Assembly (NCBI GenBank): GCA_013378335.1
Contig: CP040556.1
Coordinates: 248,001-312,000 of the forward strand
Length of the DNA: 64,000 bases
DNA from: Streptococcus sanguinis
Lineage (GTDB): Bacteria > Bacillota > Bacilli > Lactobacillales > Streptococcaceae
Reading direction: 5' to 3'
In this document: in pieces, positions 30,695 through 39,016 of the stretch
How the letters are laid out: every line of letters begins with the position of its first letter
Position numbering within the stretch: the stretch's first letter is position 1
Translations under genes and position numbers: made by a program
Notes under the pieces: generated by a model
What the model saw: only the letters and a program-made list of their open reading frames with translations
Told to the model about the DNA's origin: nothing
Database searches by the model: none

Positions 30695-30729
30695 TTTTGC
30701 TTTGATAAATATTTTTAATCAGGCTGATA

Positions 30730-30770
30730 GGGAAAATATATTTCCCAGGAGAAAAAGAGGATGGTATGAT
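30730..30770 (+). promoter_or_regulatory. Promoter and palindrome of the UroD-like/ABC operon
   Basis: An extended -10, TGG plus TATGAT (30765-30770), is preceded by an inverted repeat GGGAAA-N5-TTTCCC (30730-30746) that covers the expected -35 region. A repressor or activator site is plausible; the regulator is unknown. No riboswitch or T-box features are seen in 30695-30799. Confidence 0.6.
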
Positions 30771-30799: not shown

Positions 30800-31807
30800 A
30801 TGGTCAGCAAGAAAGAATTAGTGCTAAGAGCTTTTCGGGGTGAAGAAGTTGACCGAGTGCCTGTTGGATTCTGGTTTCACTTTGTAAGCCAAGAGGAAAA
30901 GATGCTGGGCCTGAACAATCCTGTGATTTTCAATAAAAGTGTTGAGGGGCATGCTGCTTATGTTCGAGCTGCACGGCCAGACTTTGTCAAGATTATGAGC
31001 GATGGTTTCTTTAAGTATCCCAGCGAGCTTTATTCGGATCATATTGAGTCCATTCGGGACTTGGCAGCTATTCAGTCTATCGGTGAGGATCATCCTTGGA
31101 TTGAGCAGCAGATTGAGATGGTGAAGGCTGTGAAAGAAAGCTATCCGGAGGACCTCGCTTCCTTCTACAATATCTTTGCGCCGGTCTCCTATTTCAAGCG
31201 CTGGTTCCGCAGGGAAGGATCGCGAGGAGATAGAGAAATTGCAGATTTTCTAGCAGAGGATCCCGAGCTGACAGGACATGTTCTAGATGTCATTGCCGGT
31301 GATATTGCTATTTTGACTAGACGCATCATTGAGGAAGCGGGCATTGAGGGGATTTATCTCAGTACCCAGCAAGTCCAAGACGGCCGAGTAGATGGGGCTA
31401 GTTATCGTCGTTATATTGAGCCTAGTACGGTCAAGGTTCTGGCTGCAGCCAATGCGGCTGGCGGTCAGAATATTCTCCACATCTGTGGCTTTGAAGGGGC
31501 CAGCAATGATTTGGAACTGTTCAAAGACTATCCGGCTCAAGTCTTTAACTGGGCAACCCATCATGAGGGGGTCAGCTTAGTGGAAGGGCGCAAGCTCTTT
31601 GGCGGTCAGACTGTCCTGGGCGGCTTTGAAAATGGCAGAGCGGCCCTTCTAAATACCGGCAGTCGTGCAGAATTAGAGGCTGAGACCAAGCAACTGCTGG
31701 CTGAAACTGGTAGTCAGGGAGTGATTCTAGGGGCTGACTGCACAGTACCAGATGATTTCGAAACAGAAAGACTGGACTGGATTCGTCAGGCAGCTAGTCA
31801 GTTCTGA
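30800..31807 (+). CDS. UroD/MtaA-fold protein 1 (probable zinc-dependent methyltransferase)
   Basis: A 335-residue protein of the uroporphyrinogen decarboxylase superfamily. The N-terminus reads KKELVLRAFRGEEVDRVPVG, shared with the MtaA/CmuA methyltransferase branch, and lacks the RQAGRY motif of true HemE. His227 and Cys229 in NILHICGFEG and Cys314 in GADCTVP form the H-x-C...C zinc-thiolate site known from MtaA-type enzymes that move methyl groups to a thiol. GGFENG lies near 274. The likely role is methyl transfer or related chemistry on the molecule imported by the ABC system downstream; this is inference. AAGGAGG precedes the start. A paralogue is at 32151. Confidence 0.82.
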   Translation: MVSKKELVLRAFRGEEVDRVPVGFWFHFVSQEEKMLGLNNPVIFNKSVEGHAAYVRAARPDFVKIMSDGFFKYPSELYSDHIESIRDLAAIQSIGEDHPWIEQQIEMVKAVKESYPEDLASFYNIFAPVSYFKRWFRREGSRGDREIADFLAEDPELTGHVLDVIAGDIAILTRRIIEEAGIEGIYLSTQQVQDGRVDGASYRRYIEPSTVKVLAAANAAGGQNILHICGFEGASNDLELFKDYPAQVFNWATHHEGVSLVEGRKLFGGQTVLGGFENGRAALLNTGSRAELEAETKQLLAETGSQGVILGADCTVPDDFETERLDWIRQAASQF

Positions 31808-31862
31808 CGGACTCAGCAAAGCGATAAAGAGCAATTTTCAACTCTTTCAAGGAGGAAGATAG

Positions 31863-32063
31863 ATGAACTGGTATCAAAAACGGCTTGCTGCTCTTGCTCT
31901 GATATTCTTGATAATAGGAAGCTTTCTGTGCATCAGTCAGATTTATGCTTATCAGTCTTCAGACAAAAAAGAAGATGACTTGCAGGTGCTCAAGAAACTG
32001 CCAGAGCAGTCAACTGGCTTGATGCAGCCCAATGATATCGCGGCTCTGCTCTTGTCGGATTAG
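31863..32063 (+). CDS. Small membrane protein between the UroD-like genes
   Basis: A 66-residue protein with one hydrophobic segment (about 8-29) and a charged tail (DKKEDDLQVLKKLPEQ). It has a strong AAGGAGGA site, and the next gene lies 87 bases downstream, so it is probably a real gene of the operon. No known family is recognised. It has no processing signal typical of pheromones; an accessory subunit of the transporter is one possibility. Confidence 0.62.
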   Translation: MNWYQKRLAALALIFLIIGSFLCISQIYAYQSSDKKEDDLQVLKKLPEQSTGLMQPNDIAALLLSD

Positions 32064-32150
32064 AATTTTACTTAAAAAGATGAATTAGCCTAATTAAAAA
32101 GCTAAAAAACAACTCATTGGCTAGATAGGAACAATAAAAAAGGAGAGAAG

Positions 32151-33152
32151 ATGACTTCAAAAAGAGAATTAGTACTGAAGGCTTTCAGAGGAGAGCCCGT
32201 TGACCGAGTGCCAGTTGGTTTCTGGCATCATTTTACCAGCGAGGAAGAGTGGCTGGCAGGTTTTGGAAATCAGGCCATTATTGAGAAAAATCTGGCAGGT
32301 CATCAAGCTTTTCTGGCAGAAGTCGAGCCAGACTTTATCAAGCTGATGAGTGATGGTTATTTTGCTTATCCTAACGAGCGCTTGAAAAAAGTCCAATCTA
32401 TCAAGGAGTTGGCAGATATTGAGCCGCTAGGTGCTGACCACCCTTGGATTAGTGAGCAGGTGGAGCTGGTTCAGAAGATTAAGGCTAGCTTTACAGAGGA
32501 CTTGGTCGCTATTTACAATATTTTTGCGCCAGTGACCTATTTCAAATGGTTGGTCGGCAAGGTTGCCGGTGGAGATGACATCATTGCAGATTTCTTGGCG
32601 GAGGATGCGGTACTCACGAAGCGGGTGCTGGATGTGATTGCTCAAGATATTGCGACTCTGACAGAGCGGATTATCAAGGAAGCTGGTGCGGATGGAATCT
32701 ACCTCAGCGTTCAGAGCATTCAGGATGCACGGGTGTCTGCTGAAGACTATAAGGCTTTTATTGCTCCTAGTGAATTGGCGATGCTGGAAGCAGCCAGCGC
32801 AGCTGGCGGAGTGAATATCCTGCACATTTGTGGCTACGAAGGCGCGCGAAACGATGTTCATCTTTTCACAGATTATCCAGCTCAAGTCATCAACTGGGCA
32901 GTAGGGCCAGAAGGCATCAGCCTAGCGGAGGGCAGGAAATTGTTTGGCGGCCGGACTGTTCTGGGTGGTTTTGAAAATGGCAAGGACGGTCTGCTCTACA
33001 CGGGCAGTCAAGCGGCTATTCAAGACGAGACCAAGCGGCTGATAGCAGAGGCTGGCAAGGACGCTTTGATTATCGGGGCTGACTGTACTATTCCAAGCGA
33101 CATTAAGGCAGAGCGGATTCAGTGGGTTCGTCAAGCAGCAAGCTTATCATAA
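32151..33152 (+). CDS. UroD/MtaA-fold protein 2 (probable zinc-dependent methyltransferase)
   Basis: Second UroD-superfamily protein, 333 aa, clearly a paralogue of the one at 30800 (same KRELVLKAFRGEPVDRVPVG opening and the same blocks throughout). The zinc site is conserved: His225 and Cys227 in NILHICGYEG and Cys312 in GADCTIP; GGFENG is also kept. Differences cluster in the region about 80-145, near the expected substrate pocket, so the two may act on different substrates or as a heterodimer. AAAGGAG precedes the ATG. It is 15 bases before the ABC binding-protein gene, so it is surely in the same operon. Confidence 0.82.
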   Translation: MTSKRELVLKAFRGEPVDRVPVGFWHHFTSEEEWLAGFGNQAIIEKNLAGHQAFLAEVEPDFIKLMSDGYFAYPNERLKKVQSIKELADIEPLGADHPWISEQVELVQKIKASFTEDLVAIYNIFAPVTYFKWLVGKVAGGDDIIADFLAEDAVLTKRVLDVIAQDIATLTERIIKEAGADGIYLSVQSIQDARVSAEDYKAFIAPSELAMLEAASAAGGVNILHICGYEGARNDVHLFTDYPAQVINWAVGPEGISLAEGRKLFGGRTVLGGFENGKDGLLYTGSQAAIQDETKRLIAEAGKDALIIGADCTIPSDIKAERIQWVRQAASLS

Positions 33153-33167
33153 AAAGGAGACGAAAGA

Positions 33168-34052
33168 ATGAGTAAGAAAAAATGGATTATTGGTGGAGCA
33201 GCAGTGATTGCTATTGTAGCGGCAACTTATTTGGGTCGGACCTTGACGGGGGCTTCATCTAGCAAGACGAGCAGCTCTGCATCAGGCAGTGGCAAGGTCA
33301 CAACTTTGAAAGTGGCACATACACAGAACTATGTTCCTTATGACTTTGTGGATGAAAAAGGCGAATCAGATGGCTATGAGGTTGCTGTTCTCAAGGCCAT
33401 TGATGAGAAGCTGCCAGACTATCAGTTTGAATATACTGGTACCAGTGATGAAGATCTCTTAGTCGGTCTGGAATCTGGGAAATATGATATTGGAACCAAG
33501 GGAGCATGGTACACCGAAGAGCGGGCGAAGAAGTTCATCATTCCAGAAAGCCCAATCGGGGCTAGCATTATCGGTTTCACTATCCGCAAGGAAGATGCTG
33601 AAAAATACAAAACTATTGATGATTTTGCCAAGGAAAAGGGTAAGCTGGTACCAATCTCTCCGCAGAATGCTCAATGGGCCGTTATCGAAGAGTATAACAA
33701 AAAGCATAGCGGTGCTCCTATTGATTTGACTGCAGCAGAGTCCTTCAAGGTAGCTGATGCTTATGCTTGGGTTCTGGAAGGGCGCTACGATGCTTTCTTT
33801 GACATCAAGCTGTCTTTTGAAAAAGCTGTGACAGACAAGGAAGGTTCTTACCATCAGTATGCGGATCAACTGACTTGGTTCCCTTACAAGGGGATTCCGA
33901 CCTATCCCCTGCTTCATAAAAACGAAAAAAATGAAGAATTTGCCAAGGCATACGAGAAGGCAATTAAGGAACTGGAAAAAGACGGAACCTTGGCTAAACT
34001 ATCGGAGAAGTATTTCGGAGAAGATGTCTTCTCTTATGTGGACAAGGATTAG
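33168..34052 (+). CDS. ABC transporter substrate-binding protein (amino-acid type)
   Basis: Family 3 extracellular solute-binding protein, 294 aa, probably delivering an amino acid or small amine. N-terminal hydrophobic segment (about 6-25), then a Ser/Gly/Thr linker and the two-lobed binding domain (about 43-285, opening TLKVAHTQNYVPYDF). Unusually there is no Cys at the signal end (the region reads ATYLGRTLTGASSS), so it is not a standard lipoprotein and is probably held by an uncleaved anchor. It is followed after a 206-base gap by two permeases and an ATPase. The ligand is unknown. Confidence 0.88.
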   Translation: MSKKKWIIGGAAVIAIVAATYLGRTLTGASSSKTSSSASGSGKVTTLKVAHTQNYVPYDFVDEKGESDGYEVAVLKAIDEKLPDYQFEYTGTSDEDLLVGLESGKYDIGTKGAWYTEERAKKFIIPESPIGASIIGFTIRKEDAEKYKTIDDFAKEKGKLVPISPQNAQWAVIEEYNKKHSGAPIDLTAAESFKVADAYAWVLEGRYDAFFDIKLSFEKAVTDKEGSYHQYADQLTWFPYKGIPTYPLLHKNEKNEEFAKAYEKAIKELEKDGTLAKLSEKYFGEDVFSYVDKD

Positions 34053-34258
34053 TGGCTGCTGTCTGCTGATCACGGAAAATCAAAGGCTGACTGAGAAGCT
34101 AGCTGAATAAAGAACTGGAGAGTTCCAAGCTGACCTTGATGCTGTTTGAAGGAATTTTCAAAGAGGATAGCTAGGTGAGAGCATGGCTGCTCCAATCTGA
34201 AAGCGCCCGTCCAAGAGAAGCTTATTCTATCTAATCACTGTCGAAGGAGAAGAAAATT
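34053..34258 (+). other. 206-base gap inside the ABC operon
   Basis: No promoter, terminator or open frame of note was found here. It is unusually long for a gap between co-transcribed genes and may be a leader or a gene remnant. An RBS (AAGGAGAAG) stands at its end. Confidence 0.4.
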
Positions 34259-34951
34259 ATGGTCTCGTATGACTTATCCCGTGTCTTTGGCCTGCTGCCT
34301 AGTCTGCTGCAGGCTCTGCCGACCACTTTATGGATTATGTTTGTGACAGCATTGATTGGCTCCTTGCTGGGTGGTCTGTTGGCTTGGGCTCAGATTGCTG
34401 AGGAGCAGTCTTTTGCTGGTCTGGCTAGAGGATATATATTTATTCTTAGATGTACACCGCCTATTGTCTTACTTTTCTTGGTTTTTTATGGCATTCCAGA
34501 GTTTTTAGAATGGTGGCTGGGGCTGGATATCAATAATTGGTCGCGGACTGTGTTTGTCATCATCACCATGATTCTGCTCTTTGCGGCCATGATTGCGGAA
34601 GTCTTCAAGGCAGCTTATCTTGCTGTTCCCAAGGGACAGACTGAGGCAGGTCTCAGTATTGGCTTGACACCGGCGCAGACTTTTCTGCGTATCGTCCTGC
34701 CACAGGCTTTTCGCATCGCCCTGCCCAATCTGACTACTGCCCTTCTTAATCTCATGCGGGATGCTGCGCTGGCTTATACGATTGGGGCTGTTGATGTCAT
34801 GGGAGCAGGACAAAATCTCATCAGCCGTAATCTGGGAAATTATTCCCTAGAAACCTATACAGCGGTGGCCTTGATTTACTGGGGGATTGCCCTAGTGGTT
34901 TCGCTGGCTTCCCAGCTTCTGGAAAAAAGTCTGACAGTCAAGGAGAGGTAA
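34259..34951 (+). CDS. ABC transporter permease 1 (amino-acid type)
   Basis: Membrane subunit of a polar amino-acid-type importer (HisMQ family), 230 aa, about five membrane segments. The family's coupling motif, which contacts the ATPase, is visible near residue 125-150 as EAGLSIGLTPAQTFLRIVLPQ. RCTPPIVLLFLVFYG near 62 is also typical. It is three bases from the second permease gene and so translationally coupled; together they form a heterodimeric channel. Confidence 0.92.
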   Translation: MVSYDLSRVFGLLPSLLQALPTTLWIMFVTALIGSLLGGLLAWAQIAEEQSFAGLARGYIFILRCTPPIVLLFLVFYGIPEFLEWWLGLDINNWSRTVFVIITMILLFAAMIAEVFKAAYLAVPKGQTEAGLSIGLTPAQTFLRIVLPQAFRIALPNLTTALLNLMRDAALAYTIGAVDVMGAGQNLISRNLGNYSLETYTAVALIYWGIALVVSLASQLLEKSLTVKER

Positions 34952-34954
34952 AGC

Positions 34955-35641
34955 ATGGATTTGAATTATATTGTAAATACCTTTCTGGTAACGTTGAAAG
35001 GCATACCGGTAACCTTAATCATTATGGTGGTGGCTATTCTGCTCAGCTTTATTCCAGCTCTGCTTCTAGCTCTGGGACAGATTTATAAAGTTCGAGGTGT
35101 GCGGACCTTTTCGGTGGTTTATCTGGCCTTCATTCGGGCGACGCCTCCTATTTTGCTCATTCTCTTTTTCTACAGTCTTTTTCCAAGCTTACTGAATCAA
35201 ATTTTCAAAAGTCTGGGTAGTCAGGTAGACGTCTTTAAGTTCAATCCGCTTTACTATGCTTTCATTATTTATAGCCTGATGACAACAGGGAGTTTGTCGG
35301 AAATACTGCGCTCTGCCATTTTGACAGTGGATAAAGGGCAGTTGGAGGCGGCTCAAGCGATTGGTTTAACGAATTTTCAAGCCTATCGGAGAATTGTTTT
35401 TCCTCAGGCATTGCGCTCTGCCTTGCCTAATCTGGCCAATCTGGTTATCAATCTAGTCAAGGGAACCTCGCTGGTGTTTGTCATGACTGTCAAGGATATC
35501 ACAGCCTTGGCTAAGATAGAGGCCTCCCATTCTTACCAGTATTCAGAGTCTTACCTGGTGATTTTTGTTATTTATCTCATTATTTGTGGCTTGATTCAGT
35601 GGATTTTTAGGAGCTTGGAAAAGCGCTACGCTCTTGCTTAG
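34955..35641 (+). CDS. ABC transporter permease 2 (amino-acid type)
   Basis: Second membrane subunit, 228 aa, with about five membrane segments and the matching coupling motif EAAQAIGLTNFQAYRRIVFP near 130. RATPPILLILFFYSLFP near 65 parallels permease 1. It starts three bases after permease 1 and ends 12 bases before the ATPase gene. Confidence 0.92.
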   Translation: MDLNYIVNTFLVTLKGIPVTLIIMVVAILLSFIPALLLALGQIYKVRGVRTFSVVYLAFIRATPPILLILFFYSLFPSLLNQIFKSLGSQVDVFKFNPLYYAFIIYSLMTTGSLSEILRSAILTVDKGQLEAAQAIGLTNFQAYRRIVFPQALRSALPNLANLVINLVKGTSLVFVMTVKDITALAKIEASHSYQYSESYLVIFVIYLIICGLIQWIFRSLEKRYALA

Positions 35642-35653
35642 GAAGGAAAGATT

Positions 35654-36418
35654 ATGTTAGAAGTAAAACATATCTCCAAACGATTTGGAGAGCACCAGGT
35701 GCTGGCAGATGTCAGTCTCAAGGTCAATCAAGGCGATGTTGTGGTTATTCTGGGACCCTCAGGCTCTGGGAAAACAACATTTCTGCGCTGTCTGAATCAC
35801 TTAGAAAAAGCGGATAGCGGCCAGCTGACTTTGTCTGGTAAGGACTATGATTTGGCTAAGCTCAGCAAAAAGGAGATTTTGGAAATTCGTAGAAAGACGG
35901 CCTTTGTCTTCCAGCATTATAATCTCTTTGCCAATAAAACGGCCCTTGAAAATATCTTAGAGGGCTTAGTAATCGCTCGTAAGATACCGAGGGAAGAAGC
36001 GCTTGAGATTGCGGAAGAGTCCTTGAAGCGCGTGGGCCTTTTGGCCTACAAGGACTATTATCCTTCTCAGCTATCAGGCGGTCAGCAGCAGCGGATTGGA
36101 ATTGCCCGTGCCATTGCTGTCAAGCCAGATGTCATCCTGCTGGATGAACCAACCTCGGCTCTAGATCCGGAATTGGTCGGTGAAGTTCTCAGCGTCATGA
36201 AACAGCTGGCTCAAGAGGGAGTGACCATGGTCGTTGTGACCCATGAGATGAGCTTTGCCCGTGATGTGGCCAACCATGTCATCTTTATGGACGGAGGTCA
36301 CATCGTCGAAGAAAATCCTCCTCAGGAATTCTTCAGCAGTCCAAAGGAAGAGCGGACCAAACAGTTTCTGTCCCGCATTCTGTCGGATGCCAGCTATAGT
36401 GTAGAGTATATGATTTAA
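35654..36418 (+). CDS. ABC transporter ATP-binding protein (amino-acid type)
   Basis: ATPase subunit, 254 aa, energising the importer. Walker [10 protein letters not shown] (residues 34-42), Q loop VFQHYNLF near 86, signature LSGGQQQR near 140, Walker [14 protein letters not shown] near 158, H loop VVVTHEM near 195. These match the GlnQ/polar amino-acid group. AGGAAAG precedes the ATG. Last gene of the operon, followed directly by a strong terminator. Confidence 0.95.
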
Positions 36419-36446
36419 AAATCTGGATTGTGTCCAGATTTTTATT
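36417..36446 (+). terminator. Terminator of the UroD-like/ABC operon
   Basis: AAAATCTGGA and TCCAGATTTT arms with a short loop and T run, overlapping the ATPase stop codon. Confidence 0.87.
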
Positions 36447-36537: not shown

Positions 36538-36566
36538 TTGACAAATAAATTCTGTCATGGTAAAAT
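36538..36566 (+). promoter_or_regulatory. Promoter in the clpL upstream region
   Basis: TTGACA (36538-36543), 17-base spacer, TAAAAT (36561-36566) with upstream TGG. It is bracketed by the two TACAACTGTA boxes. The nearest gene is clpL, giving a leader of about 300 nt. Confidence 0.65.
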
Positions 36567-36877: not shown

Positions 36878-39016
36878 ATGAACAACAACTACAACAATTT
36901 TAACAATATGGACGACCTTTTCAACCAACTCATGGGGCGCATGGGCGGCTACAACAGCGAACACCGGCGCTACTTGATTAATGGTAGAGAGGTCACACCG
37001 GAAGAGTTTGCTCAGTATCGGGCTACTGGCAAGCTCCCCGGTCAAGGAGCAGGTGAGCAGACTAGCCAGACTGCTGCTCAGGGACCTAAGCAGGATGGTA
37101 TCCTGGCTAAGCTAGGTCGCAATCTGACCCAAGAAGCGCGTGATGGTAAGTTAGATCCAGTCATTGGGCGCAATAAGGAAATCCAAGAAACTGCTGAAAT
37201 CCTTTCCCGCCGGACTAAGAATAATCCTGTATTGGTCGGAGATGCAGGTGTCGGAAAGACAGCTGTCGTAGAAGGATTGGCTCAGGCTATCGTCAATGGT
37301 GATGTGCCAGCGGCCATCAAGAACAAGGAGATTATTTCTGTTGATATTTCTGGTCTAGAAGCTGGTACTCAATATCGTGGTAGCTTTGAAGAAAATATCC
37401 AAAACTTGGTCAATGAAGTCAAGGAAGCCGGCAACATTATCCTCTTCTTTGATGAAATCCATCAAATCCTAGGAGCAGGATCTATCGGTGGAGATAGTGG
37501 CTCTAAGGGCATGGCGGATATTCTCAAACCAGCACTTTCTCGCGGTGAGCTGACCATTATCGGGGCTACTACTCAGGACGAGTACCGTAACACCATTCTC
37601 AAAAATGCAGCTCTGGCTCGCCGGTTCAATGAAGTCAAGGTCAATGCACCGTCTGCCGAAGATACTTATCAGATCCTTCGAGGTATTCGGGACCTGTACG
37701 AAAAGCACCACAATGTCATCCTGCCGGATGAGGTGCTGAAAGCAGCTGTGGACTACTCTGTTCAGTATATTCCACAGCGGAGCCTGCCAGACAAGGCGAT
37801 TGACCTGGTCGACGTGACGGCAGCTCACCTGGCAGCCCAGCATCCAGTAACTGATGTTCATGCGGTTGAACATGAGATTGCTGAGCAAAAAGACAAGCAG
37901 GAAGCAGCTGTTGAAAAAGAAGATTATGAAGCAGCTCTGAATGCCAAGACCCGCATTGAAGAGCTGGAAAAGAAAATTCAAAACCACACCGAGGACATGA
38001 AGGTAACGGCTACGATCAACGATGTAGCAGAGTCTGTTGAGCGGATGACGGGAGTGCCGGTATCTCAGATGGGTGCCAGCGACATTGAGCGCCTCAAGGG
38101 CATGAATGACCGTCTCAAAGCCAAAGTTATCGGCCAAGACAAGGCTGTAGAAGCTGTGGCTAGGGCTATCCGCCGTAACCGTGCAGGCTTTGATGAAGGC
38201 AACCGTCCAATCGGAAGCTTCCTCTTCGTTGGTCCGACAGGTGTCGGAAAGACTGAGCTTGCTAAACAACTGGCTCTAGATATGTTCGGTACCAAGGAAG
38301 CCATCATCCGTCTGGATATGTCTGAATACTCCGACCGGACTGCCGTTTCCAAGCTGATTGGTACCACTGCGGGCTATGTCGGCTATGATGATAACAGCAA
38401 TACCTTGACTGAGCGTGTGCGCCGCAATCCTTACTCTATCATCCTCTTGGATGAGATTGAAAAGGCGGATCCACAGGTGATTACCCTTCTCCTTCAAGTT
38501 CTGGATGACGGTCGTTTGACAGATGGTCAAGGGAATACAGTCAACTTCAAGAACACGGTTATCATTGCAACTTCCAATGCGGGCTTTGGCTATGAAGCAG
38601 GCTTGGAAGAGGATGCAGAAAAGCCTGATCTGATGGATCGACTCAAAGCTTATTTCCGTCCAGAGTTCCTCAATCGTTTCAATGCAGTTATTGAGTTCTC
38701 TCATCTCAAGAAAGAAGATTTGATGGAGATTGTGAATCTCATGCTGATTGAAGTAAATCAAACCTTGAGCAAGAAAGAAATTGATCTGGCAGTATCTGAT
38801 GCAGCTAAGGAATTCCTGCGCGATGCTGGTTATGACCAGGTCATGGGTGTTCGTCCGCTCCGTCGTGTCATCGAGCAGCAAATTCGTGACAAGGTGACTG
38901 ACTTCCACTTGGATAATCTAGATGCTAAGCACTTGACGGCCGATTTGGAAGATGGTGTCTTGGTTATCCGGGAAAAAGGCGCTGCCGCATCTGAAGAAGA
39001 CAAGCAGGCAGAATAA
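36878..39016 (+). CDS. clpL: ATP-dependent Clp ATPase ClpL
   Basis: HSP100-type chaperone ATPase of streptococci and lactobacilli, 712 aa, which helps protect against heat and wall stress. It opens with an Asn-rich tail ([18 protein letters not shown]) and a short linker instead of the usual Clp N-domain, the ClpL hallmark. AAA module 1 has Walker A GDAGVGKT (121-128) and FFDEIHQ near 190; a middle coiled coil spans about 325-375; AAA module 2 has GPTGVGKTE near 450 and [11 protein letters not shown] near 525. No ClpP-binding tripeptide was noticed. The long upstream region suggests complex control. Confidence 0.94.

Follow-up and report, generated by a model that had tools for sequence, protein, structure and literature searches.

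A widespread streptococcal operon links UroD/MtaA-family proteins to a predicted sulfur-type amino-acid importer

What do two proteins of the UroD/MtaA family do at the head of an amino-acid importer operon? The question is raised by a locus of Streptococcus sanguinis within a 64-kb stretch of contig CP040556.1 (assembly GCA_013378335.1, positions 248,001 to 312,000; the window), in which seven same-strand (+) frames at 30800-36418 encode UroD1, a short membrane peptide, UroD2, and the binding protein, two permeases and ATPase of an ATP-binding cassette (ABC) importer. An initial annotation of the window had described this gene set, all seven frames of which were located where it had placed them, and had proposed an undescribed system that imports a small methylated or thiol compound and processes it by zinc-dependent methyl transfer without cobalamin. 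We find that the operon is a real, conserved and mostly overlooked unit, and that it is far more widespread than that annotation knew. Our preference, a tentative one, is for an operon that imports a cystine-like or S-methylated amino acid and whose enzymes pass a methyl or S-alkyl group to a zinc-bound thiol, probably that of homocysteine, without vitamin B12. This reading is drawn from the 58 Streptococcus genomes that share enzyme and importer, the adjacency of UroD and ABC genes in several phyla, neighbouring sulfur genes, a receptor resembling those for cystine and glutathione, a His-Cys-Cys triad and the lack of corrinoid partners.

UroD relatives, counted at E ≤ 1e-8 in genome sets that overlap between genus, order and phylum level, were found in 58 of 147 Streptococcus genomes, 28 of 246 order-level genomes and 12 of 299 phylum-level genomes, some of those in the last two sets being ~27% identical. 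The binding protein (E ≤ 1e-60) is present in exactly the same 58 Streptococcus genomes, the other 89 having neither; in genome G126 only the second half of the binding protein matches. In one named public genome collection, 454 stretches encode a UroD relative; the best 80 (79 from outside Streptococcus) were kept and, with the window and 40 further loci, made up the 121 loci of a profile pass, which include near-duplicates and are not phylogenetically independent. UroD and all four ABC parts lie on the same strand within 5.5 kb at 68 of the 79 non-streptococcal loci, and the full ABC set stands beside UroD at 32/32 streptococcal loci with UroD over threshold (33 examined, the one sub-threshold locus, L141, being a distant UroD copy in G043) and at 4/4 loci from other Lactobacillales. 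The pairing of UroD with family-3 ABC genes to which the initial annotation had drawn attention is therefore found well beyond the window. Among the 11 misses, L081 and L113 have three of the four ABC parts, and two others, L091 and L100, are close to the end of their contigs. No UroD over threshold was present at the five loci with distant relatives (~27% identical). UroD genes without neighbouring ABC genes occur at L083, L088, L089, L091, L093, L094, L100, L120 and L131, mostly from spirochaetes and Dialister. Gene order varies, the binding protein preceding UroD in part of the Lachnospiraceae and UroD lying between permease and ATPase at four Acidaminococcaceae-type loci, so that the link between UroD and importer has survived rearrangement. 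Two tandem binding-protein genes share one operon at L105 (11129-12875) and L169 (6550-8336), and G066 also has two. At L158 (10014-12159), and in the same order at L157, both from Lactobacillales, a GFO/IDH/MocA oxidoreductase and a second, different UroD-family protein (PF01208, 81.7 bits) are encoded between UroD and the binding protein.

The neighbourhood outside Streptococcus points to sulfur amino acids. Within 9 kb on either strand, the 79 non-streptococcal loci encode cystathionine synthase/lyase-family enzymes (38 loci), PatB C-S lyases (35) and the cysteine synthase CysK (17), against a chance expectation of ~1-2% of loci, estimated from 45 full-length PF01053 genes (E ≤ 1e-100) in 17 carrier genomes. 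Among the representatives scanned, three PatB proteins (475, 456 and 486 bits, cut-off 340) and one CysK (453 bits, cut-off 351) pass their models; for the two cystathionine enzymes there were matches to several models, of which none among those listed exceeded its cut-off. In addition, the Treponema locus L110 has MetE-like and MetF-like genes (named by eye) upstream of UroD, divergent from a LysR-like gene that adjoins UroD. At some Acidaminococcaceae-type loci a gene for a sulfur transferase of the LarE type (334 bits, cut-off 150) borders the operon, as at L106 (6932-7792); such a gene also occurs near UroD in L118 and L125.

Which chemistry might the enzymes carry out? UroD1 and UroD2 are paralogues, 59-60% identical, that both exceed the PF01208 cut-off (62.8 and 70.8 bits; cut-off 23.9). 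The H-x-C...C residues read in the initial annotation occur exactly where it had put them, as HICG and GADC at residues 227-230 and 311-314 of UroD1 and 225-228 and 309-312 of UroD2. Across 66 aligned relatives, H225 and C312 of UroD2 never vary and the conservation of C227 is 90% or higher, and all three residues are invariant across the 12 relatives of at least 36% identity; this conservation argues that the triad is not there by chance. In a profile alignment, the HxC and the distal Cys fall on those of Methanosarcina mazei MtaA (4ay7). The enzymes thus have a common fold and an aligned, probably zinc-binding motif with the MtaA/MtbA methylcobalamin:coenzyme M methyltransferases of methanogens, from which they differ in their low score against TIGR01463 (MtaA/CmuA) and in having no streptococcal corrinoid partner. 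They also differ from the corrinoid-free homocysteine methyltransferases MetE and MmuM, with neither PF01717 (MetE) nor PF02574 among their Pfam matches (E ≤ 1). An AlphaFold2 model of UroD2 built from 66 sequences reached a pLDDT (predicted local distance difference test) of 96.3, and the best structures in a fold search with it were HemE and MtaA, then MetE; such matches to a model give the fold of UroD and say nothing about its reaction. In the UroD superfamily, His-Cys-Cys zinc ligands mark S/Se-methyltransferases and carboxylates mark O-methyltransferases (Kountz and Balskus, PMC10418091). Zinc-thiolate S-alkyl transfer is the likely chemistry of UroD, with methyl as one candidate for the group moved. 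Several of the aligned distant relatives (~27% identical; L036-L041, L045-L051) have H-x-H...C, with His replacing the first Cys, which perhaps reflects another zinc chemistry.

The importer has the composition of a cystine-type PAAT ABC importer (PF00497, PF00528 twice, PF00005). The nearest NCBIfam models of the ATPase, the binding protein and the first permease are cystine ones, which score below cut-off (binding protein 64 of 312 bits, permease 122.5 of 300, TcyN 317 of 406). When the binding protein was used in profile and fold searches, YtmK, Lmo2349 and two GshT receptors came first; these are the nearest solved binding proteins of cystine (YtmK, Lmo2349) and glutathione (GshT) importers, at ~25% identity, with moderate TM-scores of 0.55-0.60 by query and a model whose first 40 residues are poor. 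We know of no description of the YtmK, Lmo2349 or GshT importers with a UroD enzyme.

The operon has a counterpart in Streptococcus mutans, SMU.932-936, which we take to be the genes named tcyDEFGH. Orthology is judged from C-terminal ends printed in an excerpt of PMC10782952: that of SMU.932 recurs in the L142 UroD and that of SMU.933 in the binding proteins encoded at L140, L146 and L165, and the five genes of SMU.932-936 stand in the same order as at these loci (UroD, binding protein, two permeases, ATPase). The window operon differs by an extra second UroD and the 66-residue peptide. In excerpts of the literature, SMU.932-936 is listed among amino-acid transporters responding to saliva, coculture or manganese (PMC10900908, PMC11921374, PMC6952196), and tcyDEFGH is called a cysteine transport operon (PMC10233336). 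The window operon is thus probably the two-enzyme form of SMU.932-936, itself probably the published tcyDEFGH 'cystine transport' operon, and in this respect the initial annotation erred, since the system is not undescribed. The operon is already on the map as cystine transport, with its enzyme passed over: we found no paper that assigns a function to the operon's UroD, and SMU.932 is called hypothetical in the literature.

It is a distinct possibility that the operon encodes a plain cystine or cysteine importer whose UroD performs other thiol chemistry, be it non-methyl zinc-thiolate alkyl transfer, disulfide handling, or zinc/cysteine buffering. Epoxyalkane:coenzyme M transferase, for example, carries out zinc-thiolate alkyl transfer without a methyl group. 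The resemblance of the binding protein to cystine and glutathione receptors speaks for such an importer, as do excerpted reports that HomR activates metBC and tcyDEFGH in S. mutans, the latter described as cysteine transport (PMC5131005), and that tcyEFGH rises under zinc stress (PMC9387928). A plain importer leaves unexplained, however, why enzyme and importer are never apart in 147 Streptococcus genomes and why the His-Cys-Cys site is retained.

Alternatively, UroD could be a corrinoid-dependent Mlp/MtaA-type methyltransferase that uses a corrinoid protein encoded elsewhere, given that its closest described relatives are corrinoid enzymes. S. sanguinis has been reported to make B12, and free cobalamin could therefore be at hand in this species. 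Pfam searches detected no corrinoid protein in the operon itself, in line with the initial annotation, and no Ram activase either. We surveyed 46 carrier entries (24 streptococcal, 22 non-streptococcal), representing 45 distinct genomes. The corrinoid-carrier domain PF02607 was found in 20 of the 22 non-streptococcal carriers, and 4 of the 45 genomes encode the activase domain PF14574, but 19 of the 22 PF02607 matches lie in frames of MetH size (793-929 amino acids), the other three in shorter ones. Furthermore, PF02607, PF14574 and the B12-binding domain PF02310 are each over cut-off in 0/24 streptococcal carriers, with positive controls; PF02310 is over cut-off in 0/26 Lactobacillales carriers, three matches, one of them in the window's genome, being sub-threshold. 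Type 1 mlp clusters (Kountz and Balskus, PMC10418091) likewise contain His-Cys-Cys proteins of the UroD superfamily, frequently several of them, amid methionine and sulfur genes, whereas the streptococcal carriers have neither corrinoid protein nor Ram activase and their unit is tied to an ABC importer. We consider a corrinoid-dependent enzyme improbable. Two Streptococcus genomes, G129 and G026 (loci L145 and L152), have neither full-length MetE nor PF02607 and keep a PF02574 homocysteine methyltransferase and the UroD operon. Finally, that UroD is the uroporphyrinogen decarboxylase (HemE) of the porphyrin pathway, as the Pfam family name and one study that, in its excerpted text, groups a streptococcal UroD gene with porphyrin synthesis (PMC5786311) would have it, is highly improbable in view of the triad, the fixed link to an amino-acid importer and the HemE profile TIGR01464, which matches neither UroD (NCBIfam profiles, E ≤ 1) and is over cut-off in 0/45 carriers (three weak matches) against 6 of 14 control genomes.

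We are confident that streptococci hold no corrinoid partner and that UroD is linked to an importer of the sulfur type and, at loci from other genera, also to genes for sulfur amino acids. In the mechanism that we tentatively prefer, the binding protein would capture an L-amino acid with a sulfur-containing side chain, which the permeases and ATPase would carry in. Zinc held by His225, Cys227 and Cys312 (UroD2 numbers) would bind the acceptor as a thiolate, and methyl transfer would yield methionine and free a thiol for the cysteine pool. A LysR regulator of the CmbR/CysR or HomR type would turn the operon on when sulfur amino acids are scarce. Two further suggestions are guesses: UroD1 may pair with UroD2 in a heteromer or act on a second substrate, and the membrane peptide may hold the enzymes at the importer. 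A broader proposal, a distinct possibility though less likely than not, is that of a cross-phylum module in bacteria without a corrinoid methyl carrier. In it, amino acids bearing methylated sulfur or selenium would pass from the importer to a zinc-thiolate methyltransferase of the MtaA branch that needs no cobalamin, and this enzyme would turn homocysteine into methionine and release the thiol to the cysteine pool.

Several observations weigh against import coupled to zinc-dependent methyl transfer. The zinc, substrate and reaction of the UroD enzymes are all predictions. The TIGR01463 matches (34.9 bits for each UroD, cut-off 235.4) and the cystine matches of the importer parts are sub-cut-off ones, and the fold comparison ranks HemE as high as MtaA. 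Cystathionine, PatB or CysK genes lie near the operon in 0/32 streptococcal loci, and UroD stands without any ABC part at 9 of the 79 non-streptococcal loci. All 46 carrier entries have MetE, a MetH-size corrinoid protein or a PF02574 homocysteine methyltransferase, and UroD is therefore not needed as sole methionine synthase. Moreover, in the literature the operon figures as cystine transport and nothing more. The initial proposal of import followed by cobalamin-free methyl transfer is supported in part.

Are the seven genes (Table 1) one transcription unit? The nearest named database proteins (among the best 120 of 1511 at E ≤ 1e-5) are from S. sanguinis (95-96% identity) and S. cristatus (95%). 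Intergenic gaps are 3 to 87 bp, but 206 bp ahead of the first permease gene. A promoter-like match and an inverted repeat with a T run flank the genes and fit one predicted transcription unit, as the initial annotation had it; the 206-bp gap weakens this, and the promoter match is a weak one, since the region yields 24 such matches against 9.6 in shuffles. A strong sigma-70-like match (11/12, 36538-36566) lies upstream of a Clp-ATPase-like gene at 36878.

Table 1. Predicted features of the operon (window coordinates)
Feature	Position	Strand	Basis and remarks
CmbR/CysR-type box TGATA-N9-AATCA-N3-TGATA, predicted LysR-regulator site	30703..30729	+	one mismatch to the presumed consensus
Sigma-70-like promoter match TTCCCA-17-TATGAT	30742..30770	+	9/12, weak
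UroD1, UroD/MtaA-family protein, 335 residues	30800..31807	+	open reading frame and PF01208; triad H227, C229, C314
Predicted single-span membrane peptide between the UroD genes, 66 residues	31863..32063	+	open reading frame; NDIAxxLL-end relatives elsewhere
UroD2, UroD/MtaA-family protein, 333 residues	32151..33152	+	open reading frame and PF01208; triad H225, C227, C312; model pLDDT 96.3
Family-3 solute-binding protein, cystine/glutathione-receptor-like, 294 residues	33168..34052	+	PF00497; profile and fold searches
ABC permease 1	34259..34951	+	PF00528; best NCBIfam model cystine permease, below cut-off
ABC permease 2	34955..35641	+	PF00528; best NCBIfam model HisM, below cut-off
ABC ATPase	35654..36418	+	PF00005; best NCBIfam model cystine ATPase TcyN, 317 bits (cut-off 406)
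Inverted repeat and T run, probable terminator	36417..36443	+	read by eye; not listed by automated scan

The predicted CmbR-type box, scored against the consensus in the form that we presume for it, lies ~97 bp ahead of UroD1, a distance also seen in L153 and L166, and when the 361 bp upstream were shuffled by mononucleotides, none of the 500 shuffles reached two or fewer mismatches. Across the whole genome, a pattern widened (W) to fit this site has its one zero-mismatch match at the operon box and three sites at ≤1 mismatch, all on the forward strand, with none in a backwards control; the second site directly precedes an amino-acid-type permease and ATPase, and the third falls between two genes without evident relation. 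The first part of the consensus agrees with the operator printed in an excerpt of PMC5131005. Against the published 21-bp pneumococcal operator the window's box scores 16/21, a score that eight window sites reach and one exceeds. The best site has ≤2 mismatches at 9 of 32 streptococcal loci, in some far from the start, and five or six at the five other Lactobacillales loci scanned; a divergent LysR gene is present at 10 of the 32 streptococcal loci.

UroD1 is apparently the product of a duplication within Streptococcus: all 14 streptococcal rows of the tree fall in one supported clade (100/99), in which UroD1 forms a supported sub-clade of three (100/100), and genome G340 carries its own UroD pair (100/98). 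Two neighbouring uroD copies occur in 33 of the 58 Streptococcus carriers, one copy being partial in G137 and one interrupted by an internal stop in G031. In the latter, the first copy (L168, 8026-8715) has an internal TAG, which may mark the decay of one copy in an otherwise retained operon. A peptide with an NDIAxxLL-like end was present in 17 of 37 loci scanned and was not found in the single-copy loci L010-L014 or the two-copy loci L015-L027, L135 and L163, the last two of which have other short frames at its position.

A single public genome collection holds at least 454 stretches that encode UroD relatives, many of them from oral, gut and rumen bacteria, and the names given to these include uroporphyrinogen decarboxylase, methylcobalamin:coenzyme M methyltransferase, hypothetical protein or amino-acid transport. 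Methyl transfer without cobalamin, if true, would extend by one branch the small set of UroD-superfamily enzymes that move methyl or alkyl groups without a corrinoid, and would explain why the streptococcal importer never travels without its UroD enzyme. The analysis thereby makes a question testable: what the true cargo of the so-called cystine operon is, and what its first gene does to that cargo.

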